Source: an uncultured Burkholderiales bacterium
GTDB lineage: Bacteria; Pseudomonadota; Gammaproteobacteria; Burkholderiales; Burkholderiaceae_C
Assembly: GCA_937873395.1 (NCBI GenBank)
Contig: CALMYH010000011.1
Coordinates: forward strand, 1 to 55,070
Direction of reading: 5' to 3'
Length of the DNA stretch: 55,070 bases
Part shown: positions 4,414 to 13,485 of the stretch, piece by piece
Position numbering within the stretch: the first letter of the stretch is position 1
Layout: every line of letters starts with the position of its first letter
Notes under the pieces: generated by a model
Databases searched by the model: none
Told to the model about the DNA's origin: nothing
Seen by the model: only the letters and a program-made list of their open reading frames with translations
Program-made: the position numbers and the translations under genes

Positions 4414-4498
4414 CGGGGCCCTGCAGCAACAGTCGCGGCGCGGTGCCGCACCGGCAGGCCCGGCCGCTATCATGGCCTGGTTCACCCAGTCAGAACCC

Positions 4499-6580
4499 AT
4501 GAGCGGCAACACGCATTCCCAGAAGATTCCCTTCCTGGACCGGGACCACAGCATCCTGGCTTTCAACGCCCGGGTGATGGACTGGGCCAGGCGCCCCGAC
4601 GTGCCTTTGCTTGAAAGGCTGCGCTACCTGAGCATCGTCTCGAGCAATCTCGACGAGTTCTTCGAGGTCAGGGTGGCTCCGCACCTGACGGCGCACCATG
4701 CGAACGAGCAGCGGGGGCTGTACACGGTGCACAGCTACGACACCCTGTCACAGCGCGTGCATGAGCTGGTGGCCCAGCAATACGCCATCTACAACGACGA
4801 ACTGCTGCCGCTGCTGGAAAGAAAAGGCATCCGTCTGGTGCCCCACAGCGAACGCAACGCGCGCCAGAAGCGCTGGGTCAAGGACTATTTCGTGCGCGAG
4901 GTGCAGCCCTTGCTGTTGCCCATCGGGCTGGATCCGGCGCACCCGTTTCCGCAGGTGGCGAACAAGTCGCTGAACTTCATCGTCCGCCTCACCGGCAAGG
5001 ACGCCTTCGGACGAGAGAACGAGGTGGCGATCGTCAAGGTGCCGCGCATCCTGCCCCGCTTTCTCCAGATGCCGCCTGTCAAGGGATCCCGGCAGCTGCA
5101 CTTCGTCTCCATTTCCAGCCTCATCCGTTCCCACCTGAACGACCTCTTTCCGGGCCGGCAGGTGACGGAGTTCTCCCAGTTCCGGGTCACGCGGCATTCC
5201 GATCTTGCGGTGGACGAGGAAGAGGTGAAGAACCTGCGCACGGCGCTGCGCAAGGGCCTGCAGCAGCGCCACTTTGGCCAGGCCTTGCGGCTGGAGGTCT
5301 CCGCCGGCTGCTCCGATTACCTGGCCCGCTTCCTGCTGGACCAGTTCGGGTTGCCCGAGCAGGCCCTGTACCGCGTTCCCGGCCCGGTCAATCTGGTGCG
5401 CCTGAATCAGCTGATCGACCGGGTCGATCAGCCCAGCCTGCGCTTTGCGCCCTACCAGGGCGCCTGGCCGGTCCAGCTCACGCCCGGTCAGTCCTTCTTC
5501 GACCGCCTCAAGCAGGGGGATGTGCTGATCCACCAGCCCTATGAAGCGTTCGACGCGGTGCTGGCCTTCCTGCGCGAAGCCGTGGAAGATCCGAACGTGC
5601 TGGCCATCAAGCAGACCATCTACCGAACGGGTGCACGATCCGAGCTGATGGAATTGCTGCGTGAGGCGGTGCGACGGGGCAAGGAGGTCACCGCGGTCGT
5701 CGAGCTCAAGGCCCGCTTCGATGAAGAGGCCAACATCAGCTACGCGGAGCGGCTGGAGTCGGTGGGGGCGCAGGTGGTCTACGGCGTGGTCGGACTCAAG
5801 ACCCACGCCAAGATGCTGCTGGTGACCCGGCGCGAGGAGGGGCAGTTGCGCCGCTACGCCCACCTGTCCACCGGCAACTACAACCCCAACACGGCGCGCC
5901 TGTACACCGACCTGAGCTACCTCACGGCCGACGATGCCCTGACCGCCGATCTGGACCAGATCTTCCTGCACCTGGCCAGCCAGAACCGCCTGTCCCGCCT
6001 GAACAAGGTGCTGATGGCGCCGTTCCATCTGCACAAGGCCATGATCGACAGGGTCGATGCGGCCGCGGCGGCGGCGCGCGAGGGCAAGGACGCCCGCATC
6101 CTGCTGAAGATGAACGCCCTGACCGATGAGCCGATGGCGCGCGCGCTCGTGCTGGCCTCACAGAGCGGGGTGAAGATCGACCTCATCGTGCGCGGGGCCT
6201 GCATCCTGCCGGCCCAGGTGCCCGGCCTGACCGAGAACATCCGGGTGCGCTCGGTCATCGGACGGCTGCTGGAACACTCCCGGGTGTTCCTGTTCCGGGT
6301 CGCCGGCGAGGACGAGCTCTGGCTCTCCAGTGCCGACTGGATGAACCGCAACATGCTTCGGCGTGTCGAACTGGCCTGGCCGGTCACCGACCCGTCAATG
6401 CGGCACCGGCTGGTGGACGAGTGCATTCACACCTACCTGCACGACAACCGCGACGCCTGGCTGCTCAACGCAGACGGGCAATACCAGCCGGCCCCGGCGG
6501 GTGGCGGCCGTCAGCGTGCCGCCCCGGTGTCGGCGCAGGCCGTGCTGATGGCACGCTATGGCAGTGCGCGCGTGACATGA
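4499..6580 (+). CDS. ppk1: Polyphosphate kinase 1
   Basis: PPK1 builds long-chain polyphosphate from the ATP gamma-phosphate. The 693-residue product has the full domain set: N-terminal helical domain with NLDEFFEVRV, head domain, and two C-terminal phospholipase-D-like domains. The autophosphorylated histidine is H436 in KTHAKM and the second catalytic histidine H593 in LLEHSRVF. These positions are within one residue of the E. coli enzyme. NANPNT-like STGNYNPNTARLYTD is also present. The start at MSGNTH (4499) fits the family; an in-frame ATG at 4472 would add nine residues and neither has a clear ribosome site. A PHO-like promoter lies upstream. It is followed closely by sixA. Confidence 0.97.
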   Translation: MSGNTHSQKIPFLDRDHSILAFNARVMDWARRPDVPLLERLRYLSIVSSNLDEFFEVRVAPHLTAHHANEQRGLYTVHSYDTLSQRVHELVAQQYAIYNDELLPLLERKGIRLVPHSERNARQKRWVKDYFVREVQPLLLPIGLDPAHPFPQVANKSLNFIVRLTGKDAFGRENEVAIVKVPRILPRFLQMPPVKGSRQLHFVSISSLIRSHLNDLFPGRQVTEFSQFRVTRHSDLAVDEEEVKNLRTALRKGLQQRHFGQALRLEVSAGCSDYLARFLLDQFGLPEQALYRVPGPVNLVRLNQLIDRVDQPSLRFAPYQGAWPVQLTPGQSFFDRLKQGDVLIHQPYEAFDAVLAFLREAVEDPNVLAIKQTIYRTGARSELMELLREAVRRGKEVTAVVELKARFDEEANISYAERLESVGAQVVYGVVGLKTHAKMLLVTRREEGQLRRYAHLSTGNYNPNTARLYTDLSYLTADDALTADLDQIFLHLASQNRLSRLNKVLMAPFHLHKAMIDRVDAAAAAAREGKDARILLKMNALTDEPMARALVLASQSGVKIDLIVRGACILPAQVPGLTENIRVRSVIGRLLEHSRVFLFRVAGEDELWLSSADWMNRNMLRRVELAWPVTDPSMRHRLVDECIHTYLHDNRDAWLLNADGQYQPAPAGGGRQRAAPVSAQAVLMARYGSARVT

Positions 6581-6611
6581 ACGGCAGGGGATGGTGATGG
6601 AGGACCGAAGC

Positions 6612-7118
6612 ATGGCCAGAGACATCACGCGGGGCATGGACCTGATTCTGTGGCGCCATGCCGAGGCCCACGATCACCCGGACCTGATGTCGGGCCGGGC
6701 CGGGGACGAGCAGGATCTGCGGCGGCGGCTCACCACCAAGGGCGAAAAACAGGCCGCCCGGATGGCGGCATGGCTGGACAGGCAATTGCCGGACGGTGCG
6801 CGCATCCTGTGCAGCCCCGCCGTGCGCTGCGAACAGACGGCGATGGCGCTGGGCCGCAAGCTGCGCTTCCGCGACGAATTGCTGCCCGAACGCGATCCGC
6901 AAAGCCTGCTCGATCTGGCCCAGTGGCCCCAGGGGCGCTCGCCCGTGGTGCTGGTGGGGCACCAGCCGACGCTGGGTCAGGTGGTGGCCCGATTGCTGGG
7001 ACTGGAGCAGGGCGTTTGCTCGGTGCGGAAAGGCGCGCTTTGGTGGCTGCGCTATCGCGAGCGTGAAGGACGCAGCGAAGCGGTGCTGGTGACGGTGCAG
7101 TCGCCCGAGCTTCTGTGA
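6612..7118 (+). CDS. sixA: SixA-type phosphohistidine phosphatase
   Basis: A 168-residue histidine-phosphatase-fold protein. The catalytic RHA motif is at R15-H16-A17 (ILWRHAEA) and the second histidine is H117 in LVGHQPTLG. CSPAVRCEQTA supplies the family arginine. The protein is a single short domain, as in SixA, rather than a cobalamin or phosphoglycerate mutase. SixA removes phosphate from phosphohistidine, classically the Hpt domain of ArcB and also the nitrogen-PTS protein NPr. GGAGG at 6599-6603 is eight bases before the ATG at 6612, which fixes the start over ATGs at 6591 and 6636. It lies 31 bases behind ppk1 and is probably co-transcribed. A kinase with an Hpt domain is encoded about 0.5 kb away. 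Confidence 0.88.
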   Translation: MARDITRGMDLILWRHAEAHDHPDLMSGRAGDEQDLRRRLTTKGEKQAARMAAWLDRQLPDGARILCSPAVRCEQTAMALGRKLRFRDELLPERDPQSLLDLAQWPQGRSPVVLVGHQPTLGQVVARLLGLEQGVCSVRKGALWWLRYREREGRSEAVLVTVQSPELL

Positions 7119-7142: not shown

Positions 7143-7556
7143 TCAGGTGGTGGGCTTGCGTCGGCGGCTGGAGGGGGGCGCTGGCGGAACGGGTGCCTTG
7201 GCCTCGGCGGGCTTGGCCGGCTTGGCAGTCCTTGCCCTGGCCGGGGCAGGTCGTGGTGATGACCGTTGGGCGGGGGCTTGCGGAGCCGGCGGGCTGGCCT
7301 CGACGGTCGTGGCCGCCGGGCGGCCGGTCTTGAGCTGGGGCACAGCTGCAATCGCCTGCTTGAACCCGGCGTCGTTCATGCCCTGCAGCGCCAGCAGGCC
7401 GGCGCGCAGCAGCTCGCTCTTCTTGACGCTGGTGCCCAGGGCAACCGCCCGGGTCTTGAGCAGGTCGATGGCTGCGTACTCGCCTTTGGGAATGGTGAAA
7501 CTGTCGCGAACCAGCTTGGGCTTCTTGCGATCGGCTTTGGCAGGGTGGTCGGTCAT
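7143..7556 (-). CDS. Small ribbon-helix-helix-like protein with basic Pro/Ala-rich tail
   Basis: I do not recognise a named family. The 137-residue protein has two parts. Residues 14-58 read as a strand (KLVRDSFTIP), a helix (GEYAAIDLLKTRAVALG) and a second helix (SVKKSELLRAGLLAL), the layout of ribbon-helix-helix DNA-binding domains. Residues 77-137 are disordered, rich in Pro, Ala, Lys and Arg, and end RRRKPTT. No membrane or signal segment is present. Three perfect 9-bp tandem repeats overlap its promoter, which suggests autoregulation. It is downstream of the hybrid kinase gene on the same strand and convergent with sixA. The tail could bind nucleic acid or polyphosphate; both are guesses. 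Confidence 0.7.
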   Translation of the reverse strand: MTDHPAKADRKKPKLVRDSFTIPKGEYAAIDLLKTRAVALGTSVKKSELLRAGLLALQGMNDAGFKQAIAAVPQLKTGRPAATTVEASPPAPQAPAQRSSPRPAPARARTAKPAKPAEAKAPVPPAPPSSRRRKPTT

Positions 7557-7586
7557 CAGGGGCCTCTGGTCGGAAAAGGATGTCTC

Positions 7587-7592
7587 ATTTTA
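7587..7592 (-). promoter_or_regulatory. Candidate -10 element of the ribbon-helix-helix gene
   Basis: On the minus strand TAAAAT (7587-7592) is a 5/6 match to the -10 consensus, about 30 bases before the ATG at 7556. The -35 region falls inside the TATATACGG repeats and matches the sigma-70 consensus poorly. GAGG is present close upstream of the ATG. Confidence 0.45.
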
Positions 7593-7593
7593 A

Positions 7594-7623
7594 CCGTATA
7601 TACGGTATATACGGTATATACGG
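7594..7623. repeat. Three tandem 9-bp repeats, likely operator
   Basis: After CCG (7594-7596) the unit TATATACGG is repeated perfectly three times (7597-7605, 7606-7614, 7615-7623), followed by TTTTT. CCG plus the first unit makes the 12-bp palindrome CCGTATATACGG. The block covers the expected -35 region of the ribbon-helix-helix gene. Tandem short sites of this kind are typical of ribbon-helix-helix repressors, so this is probably where its product binds. The repeat is strikingly AT-rich against its GC-rich surroundings. Confidence 0.7.
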
Positions 7624-7636
7624 TTTTTGCCGTTCG

Positions 7637-10600
7637 CTACCGGCTTTCCAGCAACTGCTCCAGGGCGGCGGCGGTTTCGGTTGCCAGCGCTTCCAGGGAT
7701 TGGTGCAGCCGGGGATCTGTCGACCCGTCCGGCTGGTGTCCCGACAGCTTCTGGCAGAGCGCGGCCAGGCGGGCGGCGCCCACGTTGGATGCCGCACCCT
7801 TGAGGTGGTGCAACGACAGGCGCCAGGCCTCGTTGTCGCAGGCCTGCCAGGCCTGCCGTATGCACTGCAGGCGCGGTTCCAGCTCGGCCAGGAAACCGCC
7901 CACCACTTCACGGCGCAGTCCGTGCTGGCTGTCATCGAAGGCGGAGAACGCGTGCCAGCGCCCATGGTCAACCAGGGCAAGCGTGTCATCCGCCTCCCAC
8001 CCGTTCGGTGGCGACCCACCGGTGCCGGCAACCGCTTCTGCGGGTAAACCTTCCAGGCCCTCGGGCTGGCTGGCGCTCAGGTCGGCCAAAGTGCGTGCGA
8101 GCGCATCCAGCTCGAGTGGCTTGGTCAGGTAGGCCACCATGCCGGCATCCAGGCAGCGTTGCCGGTCCTCTCCGAGCGAAGAGGCCGACAGGCCGACCAT
8201 GCGTGGCGCCTGATCCTGCAGGGCCCCGGCGACCGCTCGGGCGGTGGCGATGCCGTCAAGGCCGGGCATGTGAAGATCCAGCAGGAGAAGCGCGAAAGGA
8301 TGGCCGTCCTGGCGCGCTTGCAGGATCCGGTCGAGCGCCTGGCGCCCGTCCTCGCAGGTCTCATGCGGATAGCCCAGCCGCTCCAGCATGGCCGCAATCA
8401 CCTTGAGGTTGCCCGGGTGGTCATCCACCGCCAGCACCCGGTGCCGACCGGTCGCCACGGGTGTGGGAAGGGCATGGTCAGGCTCCACATCGCTGAGTCG
8501 GACGGGATGGACCGGCAGCTCGAAACGGAAAGTCGAGCCGGCGCCGGGCTCGCTGCTGACGCCGATCCTGCCACCCATCAACTCGACCAGATGCTTGCAG
8601 ATCATCAGGCCCAGACCGGTGCCGCCATAGACGCGCGTCGTGGACGTATCGCCCTGCGCGAAAGGCTGGAACAGGTCGCCGAGTCGATCGGGGCGGATGC
8701 CGACGCCCGTGTCGGTCACGCTGAAGTGCAGCACCGATGCCTCCTGGGACGATGCCGCGTCAGACCAGACCCTCAATGTCACCTCGCCCCGGGCGGTGAA
8801 CTTGACCGCGTTGGCCAGCAGGTTCAGCAGCACCTGGCGCAGGCGGGTGACATCGCCACGGATGGCCTCCGGCACGGTTGCGGCCAGGTACATGCTCAGG
8901 TGCAGGCCTTTTTCCTGCGCCTTGATCCGGACCATGTCGACCGCGGAACCGATCGCGGCATGCAGGTCGAAAGGCCGGTCTTCGAGCACCAGCTTTCCCG
9001 ACTCGATGCGGGAGAAGTCCAGGATGTCGTCCACCACCGAGAGCAGCTGTTCGCTGGACACCCTCAGCACATCCATCAGCTCGGATTGGGCGGCGTTCAG
9101 CGGTGTGCCCCGCAGCAGTTCACCCATGCCCACGACCCCATTGAGCGGGGTGCGGATTTCATGGCTCATGACCGCCAGGAAGCCAGCCTTGGCCTTGACC
9201 GCGGCCAGCGCCTCCTCGCGGGAAGCGGCCAGTTCGGCGGTCCGCTGCTCGACGCGGCGCTCCAGCAACTGGGCCGCCTCCTGCAGCTGCTCGTTCTTCT
9301 GACGGATTTCCCGGTTGTAGGTCTGCAGGCTTCGGGCGCTGTCGTGCATCACCCGTGAAAGATGGTGCACCTCGGCAAATCGCGAGGCCTCTTCGATCGG
9401 CGGCACCTGGCCGGCACCGACGGCTGTGGCGGCGGCGTTGAGTTGCTGGAACTGCCGCGAGAGGCCGCGGCCGACGGCATAGGCCGCCCAGGCGCACAGC
9501 AGGGTGAGCAGGGCGGTGCCTGCCAGCGCCCACTGGCGTGCCTGCATCACCGAACTGGTGAAGTCCGATTCCGGGGCCACCACGATGAGCTGCCAGTCCA
9601 GGTCGTACTTGCGCCCGAACGGGCGTTGCAGGGCGATCAGGCGGTTTGACTGCAGCCCCAGCCGATCCAGCCACCGGGTCTGCGGGTTCAGCCAGGCCAG
9701 GCCTGTGTCCACATGCTTGCCGTGCTGGGCCCGCAACTGGGTGAAGGACTCGCGAACCAGCGGATCGCTGCTCTGGAGCGGAGAAATCAGCTGGTGCCGG
9801 TTCTCGACCACGCGGCTCAGCGGCTCGTCCACCGAGGACGCCACCATCAGCCCCCGGCTGTCGACCAGATAGGTGACCGCGTTGTCGCTGATGCGTGTGC
9901 TGCGGATCAGCTCGCCCAGGCGGGCCAGGCTCATGTCGACGGCCATCACACCGAGCAGGGTCCGGCCGTCCTCGGCCATGATCGGATGGGCCAGGGTCAG
10001 GTCGAACTGGTCCTTGACCGCCGAGCGGTAGACATCGGTGAAGGTGCGCCGGCCGGTGGCGACCGCCAGCTGGTACCAGGGGCGTTTTCGGGGATCGAAG
10101 ATCGTTTCTTCCTGGCGGATCAGCCGGCTGCGGTCGCCCGGCTGCTCGATCTGGAAATGCCGTCTGCCGCTGTCACCGGGCCGGATGGTCCGAACCACGT
10201 AACCGAAGCTTTCCCGCTCCAGCCCGAAGAAGCTGCCGTCCTCGGTACCCAGGTAGAGGTAGGGCACGTTCGGTGACTGCTGGGTCAGTGCATAGGCCAT
10301 CACCTCGAAGGACGCCGTATCGACCAGCCAGTTGCGCGTGCGGGCCGCTTCTGCGCCGGTGGTGAAAACCGGGGGCACCAGAGCATTGACCACGGTGTGG
10401 GATTCGCCCAGATGGGCGAGGGCACCGACGTCGATCCGGTGGGCAGCCTGGCTCAAGGCGTCCTCGGCCAGGCGGTTGATGGATTCGGCGCTGTTGTGGG
10501 AAAGCAGCCAAGCGACCAGCAGGGCGGGCGTCAGCGCCGCCAGCACCATGGCCACCACCAGCGTGCGGCCGATCGGCAGCCGGCGCAACGAAGGCCTGGC

Positions 10601-10675
10601 TGTCTCTTGGGCGTCGTGTTCCGGGTTCACACGTCCATTATCGTCATCAGATGGCGGGTTCGATGACACACACAT
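7637..10675 (-). CDS. Hybrid sensor histidine kinase: Cache-HisKA-HATPase-REC-Hpt
   Basis: This 1012-residue membrane kinase has a transmembrane helix at about 39-60, a large periplasmic double-Cache sensor (about 65-380, with RKRPWYQLAV), a second helix (about 391-412), a linker and coiled coil, HisKA with H505 (MSHEIRTPLNG), a HATPase with N and G boxes (NLLANAVKFT, GGTGLGL), a receiver domain with D800 (LLLLDLHMP) and an Hpt domain with H956 (LHHLKGAA). This is a full phosphorelay in one chain, ending on an Hpt histidine that must pass phosphate to another receiver. The upstream response-regulator gene overlaps it by 29 bases if the ATG at 10675 is used; a GTG at 10633 would remove the overlap. 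The ligand is unknown. Confidence 0.9.
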   Translation of the reverse strand: MCVSSNPPSDDDNGRVNPEHDAQETARPSLRRLPIGRTLVVAMVLAALTPALLVAWLLSHNSAESINRLAEDALSQAAHRIDVGALAHLGESHTVVNALVPPVFTTGAEAARTRNWLVDTASFEVMAYALTQQSPNVPYLYLGTEDGSFFGLERESFGYVVRTIRPGDSGRRHFQIEQPGDRSRLIRQEETIFDPRKRPWYQLAVATGRRTFTDVYRSAVKDQFDLTLAHPIMAEDGRTLLGVMAVDMSLARLGELIRSTRISDNAVTYLVDSRGLMVASSVDEPLSRVVENRHQLISPLQSSDPLVRESFTQLRAQHGKHVDTGLAWLNPQTRWLDRLGLQSNRLIALQRPFGRKYDLDWQLIVVAPESDFTSSVMQARQWALAGTALLTLLCAWAAYAVGRGLSRQFQQLNAAATAVGAGQVPPIEEASRFAEVHHLSRVMHDSARSLQTYNREIRQKNEQLQEAAQLLERRVEQRTAELAASREEALAAVKAKAGFLAVMSHEIRTPLNGVVGMGELLRGTPLNAAQSELMDVLRVSSEQLLSVVDDILDFSRIESGKLVLEDRPFDLHAAIGSAVDMVRIKAQEKGLHLSMYLAATVPEAIRGDVTRLRQVLLNLLANAVKFTARGEVTLRVWSDAASSQEASVLHFSVTDTGVGIRPDRLGDLFQPFAQGDTSTTRVYGGTGLGLMICKHLVELMGGRIGVSSEPGAGSTFRFELPVHPVRLSDVEPDHALPTPVATGRHRVLAVDDHPGNLKVIAAMLERLGYPHETCEDGRQALDRILQARQDGHPFALLLLDLHMPGLDGIATARAVAGALQDQAPRMVGLSASSLGEDRQRCLDAGMVAYLTKPLELDALARTLADLSASQPEGLEGLPAEAVAGTGGSPPNGWEADDTLALVDHGRWHAFSAFDDSQHGLRREVVGGFLAELEPRLQCIRQAWQACDNEAWRLSLHHLKGAASNVGAARLAALCQKLSGHQPDGSTDPRLHQSLEALATETAAALEQLLESR

Positions 10676-11768
10676 CCATCGGTCCGGCCCAGCCTTCGAT
10701 CTCCAGCAGGCGCCGCTCTACCTGCCGGGCCGCGCCTGCGACCCGGCGCATCATTGGCGGAGAGACGGCCATGCGGTGAGGTGCGCGCGGGCCATGCTGG
10801 GCCAGAACCTCGGCTTCCAGCACAGGCAGGCCCACCGGTGCGGTCTGCGCCTCACCTCCCAGCAGGCCTTGCAGCTCGGCCATGGCGACCGGACCACACT
10901 GCATGCCGATGGACAAGGACGCGGCGGGCAGATCCACCCGTTCGGTGTCACCGCGCAGGCTGGCGGCGAAGGCGTCAAGTGTGGCCTCGGCCTGGCGCAT
11001 CGCCAGCGCTGCCCGGTAAGCCCGCAGCGCATGGGGAACGCCCGGCTGATCCGGATTGTCTGCAAAGACGGCCAGCAACTGGGTGCCGCATCCGTGCAGA
11101 TGCCAGGCTCCGAACAGGAACACGGTGTCGCCCACGCACTCGTGAAAGCGCCCGAGCACCCGCGCCATGGTCTGCGGCCCGAGCTGACGGGTCCAGACCT
11201 GGGCCGGCACCAGCCGGACACACAGCACCGTGGCGTCGGGCAGGACTCCGGCATGCCGGCCCTGGCGGCTGCCTGGCCACTGCTCGCTCAGGGCCTCCGC
11301 CAGACGCTGCTCGTAGTTGTCACCCAGCCGGCGTGCCTGATCCTTCAGCGCCGAGCCGACCGCTTCCCGGACCTGGATGTCCTGCACGGCGGCCCGGGTG
11401 GTGTTGCGGTTGACCTGCGCTGCCACGGCCGCCAGCAACTCTTCCGGAGACACCGGCTTGCCGATGTAGTCGTCGGCACCCAGACTCATGCCCAGGCGAA
11501 CGTCGTGCCGCTCCTGCAGGGAAGTGATCAGCACCACCGGGGTCAGGCCGAAGTCGGGGTGGGCCCGCACACGCGCCAGCAGTTCGATCCCGGTCATTCC
11601 GGGCATGTTGATGTCGCTGACGATGACGTCGGGGCGAAGGGCGCAGGCCATCTCCCAGGCTTGCGGGCCGTGGCTGGCCTGCCGGACATCGTATCCGCTG
11701 CGCTCGAGAATCACCGACAGCAGCTTGCGGGTGCCGAAATCGTCCTCGGCAACAAGAATCAGGGACAT
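10647..11768 (-). CDS. Response regulator with receiver and degenerate class-III cyclase-like domain
   Basis: The 373-residue protein has a receiver domain at 1-120 with the acidic pair D9/D10, phospho-acceptor D52 (VSDINMPG) and K104 (IGKPVS). A linker follows, then a domain at about 178-345 that follows the class-III nucleotidyl cyclase layout (LGPQTMARVLGRFHECVGDTV, LLAVF, LSIGMQCGPVAMAEL). Both metal-binding aspartates seem lost: R185 is where the first is expected and T229 where the second is. It is therefore probably not a working cyclase and may be a regulatory or binding module. It overlaps or abuts the hybrid kinase gene and is its obvious partner. The start is MSLILVAEDD. Confidence 0.82.
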   Translation of the reverse strand: MSLILVAEDDFGTRKLLSVILERSGYDVRQASHGPQAWEMACALRPDVIVSDINMPGMTGIELLARVRAHPDFGLTPVVLITSLQERHDVRLGMSLGADDYIGKPVSPEELLAAVAAQVNRNTTRAAVQDIQVREAVGSALKDQARRLGDNYEQRLAEALSEQWPGSRQGRHAGVLPDATVLCVRLVPAQVWTRQLGPQTMARVLGRFHECVGDTVFLFGAWHLHGCGTQLLAVFADNPDQPGVPHALRAYRAALAMRQAEATLDAFAASLRGDTERVDLPAASLSIGMQCGPVAMAELQGLLGGEAQTAPVGLPVLEAEVLAQHGPRAPHRMAVSPPMMRRVAGAARQVERRLLEIEGWAGPMDVCVIEPAI

Positions 11769-11880: not shown

Positions 11881-13365
11881 TCAGCGGATGTCGATGCCGA
11901 ACTTCCAGTCGGTCTTCTGCCAGGCCAGCACCTCCTCGCCCAGCAGCCAGGCCGACTGCGGGTAGCGCCGGGCCCAACCCGGGTTGGTGCTCAGCTTGAA
12001 TACGCCCGGCTTGTAGCTGAGCTTGACCGATTCGTGCTCGGGCATGCGTCTGGCATGACACAGGATGACCGCCAGCCGAAGGCACAGCAACTGCTTGGCA
12101 AACAGCTCTTCGCCCAGGGCCGCGCCCAGCTTGCGCAGTTTGCCCCGCTGACCGAGCACCAGCTGGCTCATGCGGTGCAGCTCGGGCAGGGAAAAACCCG
12201 GCGCATCCACGTTGTCGAGAATGTAGGCGCCGTGGTGGTAGGAGCGGTCGTGCGAGATGTGGGTGCCGATTTCGTGCAGGCGTGCCGCCCAGGCCAGCTT
12301 CTGCGAGTAGCGCTCGTTCTGTGCGTCCACCGCGGCCACCTGGGCGAACAGGGCGGTGGCCACGGTGCTGACCCGCTGGGCCTGGGCATCGTCGATGGAA
12401 AACCGGTCGGCCAGCCAGCGCACCGTGCGTTCGCGCACGTCACCCCCGTCCGACACCCGATCGATCAGGTCGTACAGCGCACCTTGCCTCAGGGCACCCT
12501 GGGCCGGCACCATCTGCTGGATGTCGAACAGGTCGAAAATGGCGCTGAGCACACTCACTCCGCCCGCCAGTACCGGCCGCCGGTCGTCCTTGAGCCCTTC
12601 CAGGCGCAACTGGTCCACATGGCCGGCCTTGACCATGCGTTCGATCAGCCAGTCCAGCCCGGAGCGGGTCACCACACCGCTTGCCCATCCGTTGCTGCCC
12701 AGGATCTCGGCCACCGCACCCACCGTGCCCGAAGAGCCGTAGGCCGCGGTCCATTCCGTCGGCGGGAAGGTGTCAAGCGCCTCGTCGAGTACCGCCTTGG
12801 CGGCGATTTCGGCGGTCTTCATGCTGGCCGAACTGATCTGGCCACGCGCAAAGTACTTGCCGGACCAGGCGACACTGCCCAGCCGGTACGACTCCATGCG
12901 CAGCGCCTGGTAGCCCTGGCCCAGGATCATTTCGGTCGATCGGCCGCCGATGTCCACCACCAGCCGGCGCTCGTCCGACTGGGGCAGCAGGTGAGAGACG
13001 CCCTGGTAGATCAGGCGCGCCTCTTCCTGGCCCGAGACGACCTCGATGTTGAAGCCGAGGATCGACTGGGCCCGCGCCAGAAACTCGTCGCGGTTGCGGG
13101 CCTCGCGCAGGGTCTGCGTGGCCACCGCCCGAACCTGCTGCTTCCTGAAACCCTGGATGCGCTCGGCAAACCGGGCCAGGCATTCCCAACCCCGTTCCAT
13201 GGCGGCCGGACTCAGGTTCTTCTCCTCATCCAGGCCGCTGCCCTGGCGTACCGTTTCCTTGATGTACTCGACCCGTTCGATGTGTCCGGAGTGGTATCGG
13301 CCGATCTCCAGCCGGTAGCTGTTGGAGCCGAGATCGATCGCGGCCAGCAGGGTTCCGTCGTTCAT
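11881..13365 (-). CDS. ppx: Exopolyphosphatase (Ppx/GppA family)
   Basis: Ppx removes phosphate from the ends of polyphosphate, the reverse of PPK1 storage. The protein has 494 residues from the ATG at 13365 (MNDGTLLAAIDLGSNS). It shows the ASKHA-fold phosphate loop AAIDLGSNSYRLEIGR, the catalytic Glu region VSGQEEARLIYQG, the second phosphate loop VDIGGRSTEMILG and the C-terminal HD-like helical domain (AARLHEIGTHISHDRSYHHGAYI). GppA activity on pppGpp cannot be excluded. The upstream ATG at 13407 would add 14 residues lacking family similarity. The gene is divergent from pstS, with 247 bases between the two starts. No PHO-like site faces ppx. Confidence 0.93.
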   Translation of the reverse strand: MNDGTLLAAIDLGSNSYRLEIGRYHSGHIERVEYIKETVRQGSGLDEEKNLSPAAMERGWECLARFAERIQGFRKQQVRAVATQTLREARNRDEFLARAQSILGFNIEVVSGQEEARLIYQGVSHLLPQSDERRLVVDIGGRSTEMILGQGYQALRMESYRLGSVAWSGKYFARGQISSASMKTAEIAAKAVLDEALDTFPPTEWTAAYGSSGTVGAVAEILGSNGWASGVVTRSGLDWLIERMVKAGHVDQLRLEGLKDDRRPVLAGGVSVLSAIFDLFDIQQMVPAQGALRQGALYDLIDRVSDGGDVRERTVRWLADRFSIDDAQAQRVSTVATALFAQVAAVDAQNERYSQKLAWAARLHEIGTHISHDRSYHHGAYILDNVDAPGFSLPELHRMSQLVLGQRGKLRKLGAALGEELFAKQLLCLRLAVILCHARRMPEHESVKLSYKPGVFKLSTNPGWARRYPQSAWLLGEEVLAWQKTDWKFGIDIR

Positions 13366-13485
13366 AGCTTGTTCTCTATTTCGGTGCGCAGCATAACACC
13401 GGCCCATGTGACTCTGGACCGATCGCCTCGGAGGACAAAGCAGGTGTGGACGTCCAAGTGGGCTCCGCAGCCTACATATTTGTGT

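Follow-up and report, generated by a model that had tools for sequence, protein, structure and literature searches.

A predicted ribbon-helix-helix protein with a putative autoregulatory repeat array and polyphosphate gene neighbors in Burkholderiales

The 55,070-nucleotide (nt) stretch of contig CALMYH010000011.1 analyzed here (the window), from an uncultured Burkholderiales bacterium, encodes a small ribbon-helix-helix (RHH) protein whose gene is preceded by an array of short repeats and lies among polyphosphate (polyP) genes. The array of three to four units is best read as an autoregulatory operator, putative and predicted from sequence, which is the safest claim that we make, and the protein is probably a self-repressing DNA-binding protein whose main role is more likely structural, possibly linking polyP granules to the nucleoid. 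Computation supports the fold, the conserved array, the co-occurrence of array and protein, and the gene neighborhoods; dimer binding, repression and the granule role are what we infer. The features of the protein and its array are as follows.

7143..7556, minus strand: RHH protein gene, 137 amino acids (aa), coordinates including the stop codon; open reading frame with homologs in 54 of 100 genomes searched, its own included
7314..7529, minus strand: RHH core, 72 aa (RKKPKLVRDSFTIP...KTGRPA); alignment, AlphaFold pLDDT 88, hhalign against RHH_1 proteins E 3.6e-5
7146..7313, minus strand: 56-aa C-terminal tail rich in Ala, Pro, Arg and Lys; composition A 0.25, P 0.27, R 0.12, K 0.07
7596..7621, no strand: putative operator of three palindromic GTATATAC octamers, center spacing 9 bp; repeat statistics and footprint in relatives
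7587..7594, minus strand: degenerate fourth unit GTTAAAAT, gene-proximal, containing a −10-like TAAAAT (7592-7587); by eye

The open frame of 7143-7556 has a single start codon at or before the core, an ATG. The core is ungapped across 54 aligned sequences (4 of the 58 homologs were left out of this alignment), and both the alignment and the AlphaFold model give it an extended N-terminal RDSFT segment followed by helices at 15-30 and 37-49. The RDSF residues of the N-terminal strand are invariant, and the core ends in an AT-hook-like KTGRP motif. The hhalign profile matches RHH_1 proteins in register (9 of the 29 RHH_1 matches were left out of the RHH_1 alignment), and in the VIA fold comparison the best structural matches, at low Z, are the RHH antitoxins Rv0298, ParD1 and VapB2. 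DSSP assigned no strand in the monomer model, where the ribbon partner is absent, only single chains having been modeled. Pfam, NCBIfam and PDB sequence searches with the window protein returned nothing useful, with no Pfam model fitting it, and Foldseek against the PDB gave weak matches; no curated RHH family model matched the window protein, and RHH_3 did so at E 0.1 in one of 54 members. The agreement of the AlphaFold model, fold comparison and profile comparison supports the prediction that the window protein is an RHH protein, and bears out the strand-helix-helix layout proposed in a preliminary description of this DNA.

Upstream of the gene, the three octamers (7596-7603, 7605-7612 and 7614-7621) are separated by one base each and lie 40-65 nt 5′ of the ATG, inside the 80-nt spacer (7557-7636) that follows a histidine kinase gene. 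Read as a 9-bp unit, TATATACGG occurs in three perfect plus-strand copies at 7597-7605, 7606-7614 and 7615-7623, and once on the opposite strand at 7594-7602; the repeat finder TRF reported period 9 with 3.2 perfect copies at 7596-7624. The expected number of TATATACGG copies is 0.00, and four or more matches occurred in 0 of 100 dinucleotide shuffles. A chance origin of the array is rejected by the shuffles and by the footprint in relatives. A 17-nt spacer from the TAAAAT of the fourth unit would place a −35 element within the array, and a −10 hexamer (at least 5 of 6 positions) overlaps the last unit in 24 of the 34 distinct arrays of loci L003-L042, the control stretch giving 0 of 34. A plain sigma-70 scan found no consensus sigma-70 promoter. 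The preliminary description had set three perfect tandem units over the −35 region: the repeats stand, by shuffles and TRF, while the overlap with −35 is plausible by spacing only.

The array is conserved together with the gene. A matrix for the array was trained on the same 137 upstream regions of relatives that it scored, so its figures there (134 over 8 and 131 over 20; reversed, 6 of 137 over 8) are partly circular. An independent test came from the order set, which was compiled to ask whether the polyP setting is one inherited neighborhood and consists of 40 loci of 44 other places, in 38 of the evenly drawn genomes, with G067, G093, G110 and G223 left out. Seven of the 40 loci belonged to the training set; of the 33 outside it, 25 scored over 20, as against 0 of 33 for both reversed and downstream stretches. 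Nine order loci scored 20 or less, six of them without the core pattern, where the scanned stretch may be wrong. Units are spaced by exactly 9 bp in 141 of 153 close pairs from 135 distinct upstream regions (reversed control, 0 of 3), and information is 1.31 bits per column inside the array as against 0.04-0.16 in the flanks, over 110 distinct sites placed by the matrix; a value of 1.46 bits came from 92 arrays picked by high score, 1.31 being the figure without that choice. Identical rows were dropped from the spacing and placed-site information counts, and from the tail-side counts given below, as the named and unnamed collections overlap. The operator model left out 47 of the 92 arrays.

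Array and protein also co-occur across 60 genomes of the genus. By our own tally, with stricter search filters applied, the site is present at E <= 0.1 in 42 of 46 protein-positive and 0 of 14 protein-negative genomes, and at E <= 1 in 46 of 46 and 2 of 14, respectively. A genome search for further tandem copies, which had been proposed as a check, was run in the window's own genome and returned this array alone, both for two units with at most 2 mismatches and with a 27-column sequence model at E <= 10; the rest of the window holds no matrix site scoring over 5. It is because array and protein co-occur in the genus, and because the own genome has only this site, that we read the array as an autoregulatory operator, and the autoregulated pair suggested earlier is likely, as a prediction from the RHH layout and from an array conserved with the gene. 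Since only one such array is found, the protein would not be the master of a regulon in its own genome.

The setting of the gene comprises these neighbors.

4472..6580, plus strand: ppk1 polyphosphate kinase; Pfam PP_kinase domains
6591..7118, plus strand: sixA-like histidine phosphatase, convergent neighbor; Pfam His_Phos_1
7637..10675, minus strand: hybrid histidine kinase, between ppx and the RHH gene; Pfam HisKA, HATPase_c, Response_reg, Hpt
10647..11768, minus strand: response regulator, between ppx and the kinase; Pfam Response_reg
11881..13407, minus strand: ppx exopolyphosphatase; Pfam Ppx-GppA

A single-protein search of genome contigs found no relative; an alignment query found at least 563, from which 80 named relatives were kept. 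Clustering of the genes at these 81 loci, the window included, was by single linkage, with some antisense open reading frames among them; the cluster with the window's ppk is represented at 60 of the 81 loci, that with ppx at 52 and that with sixA at 51, and ppx often lies directly upstream of the array (median distance 90 nt for its cluster). In the window, the kinase and response regulator genes occupy 7637-11768 between ppx and the RHH gene; the cluster of the kinase is present in 6 of 81 loci, the window included, whereas in many relatives ppx itself is the next gene upstream. The family is large within Burkholderiales; the RHH gene is carried by 44 of 200 genomes of that order, and all 8 hits among 299 genomes of the phylum fall within it. 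In the order set, ppk1, PPK2, ppx, phoU, sixA or CHAD genes lie within 1.5 kb in 18 of 40 loci (L284 by sixA alone), as against 0 of 29 RHH_1 loci, a control that was drawn from relatives and consists partly of closer relatives than the order set. These 18 loci span 7 of 17 families, three of which supply 13 (our tally), and their neighborhoods vary by family: phoU-ppx, ppk1 with PPK2, CHAD, which a published excerpt reports as a polyP-binding domain (PMC6537752), or ppx alone. Half of the order loci (20 of 40) have no such polyP or phosphate gene within 4 kb. Neighbor genes in this set were predicted with a rough composition score (199 open reading frames, 185 of them scanned, the nearest three per side). 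The polyP gene setting described earlier thus holds for the window, where Pfam identifies ppk1, sixA and ppx, and recurs in differing neighborhoods.

Some relatives adjoin ParA-type ATPases. Such a gene lies next to the RHH gene in 3 of the 40 order loci (L289, L301 and L302, the last with no array by matrix), as it does for homologs on Calothrix and Piscirickettsia plasmids (L226 and L227). The Calothrix neighbor is annotated as cobyrinic acid a,c-diamide synthase; since that enzyme belongs to the same ATPase family, we take it to be a ParA. A virus-labeled contig (L306) carries a parA-RHH pair, its ParA recognized by a Walker motif, with weaker arrays of a variant kind. Homologs were found in 14 plasmid records; 11 were fetched and 10 scored, and the region before the gene exceeds 20 in 8 of these 10. 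On the Calothrix plasmid, four clusters of the 9-bp unit flank both parA and the RHH gene, with 31 matrix hits over 20 (both strands, overlapping registers counted), whereas neither the reversed sequence nor any of 200 Markov shuffles gave one; by analogy, these clusters resemble a type Ib partition centromere as outlined in part of a published account (PMC5016525). Given the ParA-linked relatives, we take plasmid partition proteins as the nearest working analogue. Since no parA was found among the 8 window neighbors scanned, the rest of the genome not having been searched for ParA, we do not file the window gene as a partition protein. On a Comamonas aquatica plasmid (L221, NZ_CP104280.1), a family member with an upstream array directly follows arsenic resistance genes, with a hypothetical gene and IS66-type transposase genes downstream.

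The tail of the window protein has a histone-H1-like composition, with Pro and Arg higher and Lys lower than in the relatives listed in the same comparison. An Ala/Lys/Pro-rich tail is C-terminal to the core in close Hydrogenophaga relatives, Malikia and Serpentinimonas, and a similar tail is mostly N-terminal in the other lineages sampled. Among 129 distinct cores, the tail stands before the core in 77, after it in 43 and on both sides in 4 (by the rule used), with 5 unclear; the N-terminal-tail label changes 9 times on the tree, which was built from few columns, as against 41 in shuffles. Genomes G036 and G047 each have an additional homolog that is more distant (43-44% identity), with an N-terminal tail and its own array (L051, L052, L055 and L056 being loci of this distant type), and G057 has two homologs of the distant type (46-47% identity), with N-terminal tails and their own arrays. 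That the kind of tail is kept and its side is not would fit a nonspecific polyanion binder.

In the mechanism that we propose, the N-terminal strands (R-D-S-F) of two chains would pair as a ribbon recognizing one GTWTAWAC octamer, and three or four dimers, set 9 bp apart along the promoter, would silence it, self-repression keeping the level of the RHH protein set. The main work of the protein is more likely structural: the RHH core, perhaps with the AT-hook-like KTGRP end, would hold DNA, and the H1-like tail would hold another polyanion, probably polyP, giving a granule-nucleoid link. This DNA-polyP link is the most likely claim beyond autoregulation, by analogy with AlgP of Pseudomonas aeruginosa, a DNA-binding protein whose KPAA-rich H1-like tail is, according to its abstract, needed for normal spacing of polyP granules (PMC9239181). 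The window protein shares with AlgP and the PhaM adaptors an H1-like Ala/Lys/Pro tail by composition; the AlgP abstract mentions neither an RHH core nor an operator of its own, and the likeness between the two is one of description. In PhaM and PhaF, a histone-like DNA-binding domain links the storage granule to the nucleoid, polyhydroxybutyrate granules being bound via the N-terminal end, and the excerpt of the review that covers them, unlike the present case, mentions neither RHH nor operator (PMC13052382). For the placement of polyP granules, a table row of this 2025 review gives AlgP of P. aeruginosa and marks further mechanism as unknown (PMC13052382).

By descent or analogy, the window protein would correspond to the centromere-binding protein of a plasmid partition system without an adjacent ParA. 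ParG of TP228 and omega of pSM19035, both of type Ib, likewise have an RHH fold with a flexible terminal region, together with DNA sites in repeats, and the ParG repeats also take part in transcription regulation, as far as the available portion of one source describes them (PMC5016525). A further likeness is that some relatives adjoin parA with multiple arrays; the short repeats before the gene, three to four units in the window and more in relatives, may serve as operator or centromere. Unlike type Ib systems, the window lacks parA among the neighbors scanned and has a long Ala/Pro/Lys/Arg tail, 9-bp GTWTAWAC-type units and polyP neighbors. We propose that a DNA-binding protein of partition type has been taken into polyP biology, possibly as a tether between granule and nucleoid. 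A fuller version, somewhat less likely than not, is that such a protein lost its ParA and in Burkholderiales came to hold or spread out polyP granules, with the RHH core and H1-like tail as the bridge to the nucleoid and its small centromere surviving as the autoregulatory operator. If true, granule placement would be linked with plasmid-partition machinery, and the family pairs a defined protein with a defined DNA site, in a polyP neighborhood that recurs within a large bacterial order. Open-licence literature yielded no description of the family (RHH with polyphosphate kinase or granule, autoregulation, repeats, partition), which does not prove it undescribed, and by title nothing relevant on GTATAAAC as an operator.

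Other explanations have to be weighed against this linker. A chromosomal centromere-like or nucleoid-organizing element, with ParA acting in trans and the polyP neighbors incidental, would account for the ParA-linked relatives, among them L306 with its parA-RHH pair and the Calothrix plasmid, where four array clusters surround these two genes; we consider it rather unlikely, given the lack of parA among the scanned window neighbors and its presence near only 3 order loci as against 18 with polyP or phosphate genes. A classical transcription factor, responsive to the phosphate or polyP state and regulating ppk, ppx or sixA besides itself, is unlikely. The neighboring genes, the RHH fold and the relatives beside phoU and ppx speak for such a regulator, but sixA and ppk in the window run towards the RHH gene from its other side, and a regulator of polyP genes is made less likely because the model picks up this array alone in the own genome and the matrix gives nothing else over 5 in the window. 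Moreover, the 60 genus genomes hold only three sites at E <= 0.1 away from the family gene or a contig end, namely one CRISPR spacer and two variant arrays; a fourth (G030:C189) is at a contig end, and the RHH gene of G030 is itself truncated where another contig ends.

An orphan antitoxin of the ParD/VapB type that has retained autoregulation would explain why RHH antitoxins resemble the fold by VIA, if at low Z, but it is highly improbable because no toxin adjoins the RHH gene, whose flanks are the convergent sixA and the histidine kinase. A long H1-like tail at either end, moreover, is not expected of an antitoxin. Another, unrelated protein might read the array, the RHH protein not binding it at all; this is very unlikely, since arrays of the consensus type are found with the gene from Comamonadaceae through to plasmids of cyanobacteria and gammaproteobacteria, and none of the 14 genus genomes without the protein has one at E <= 0.1. 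What speaks for such a reader is that 8 of the 60 genus genomes (G028, G046 and G058 among them) have similar arrays, with GTTCATAC cores, at places apart from the gene, and that no RHH homolog was detected in two of the eight, G046 and G055. These variant arrays, triple and of 9-bp period in L205, L207, L208, L209 and L210, weaken the picture of one protein and one site.

In two of these loci, L208 (by Pfam) and L207 (by eye), the variant array extends over the start listed for an M48 peptidase gene, and in L208 it adjoins dnaJ (by eye). In a genome of the same genus (L206, G050:C105, 1472-1561), a CRISPR spacer between 29-nt repeats of 61-nt period contains an operator copy, GTATAAACGATATACACCGTTTC, and because of this copy we suggest that invading mobile elements carry the array.
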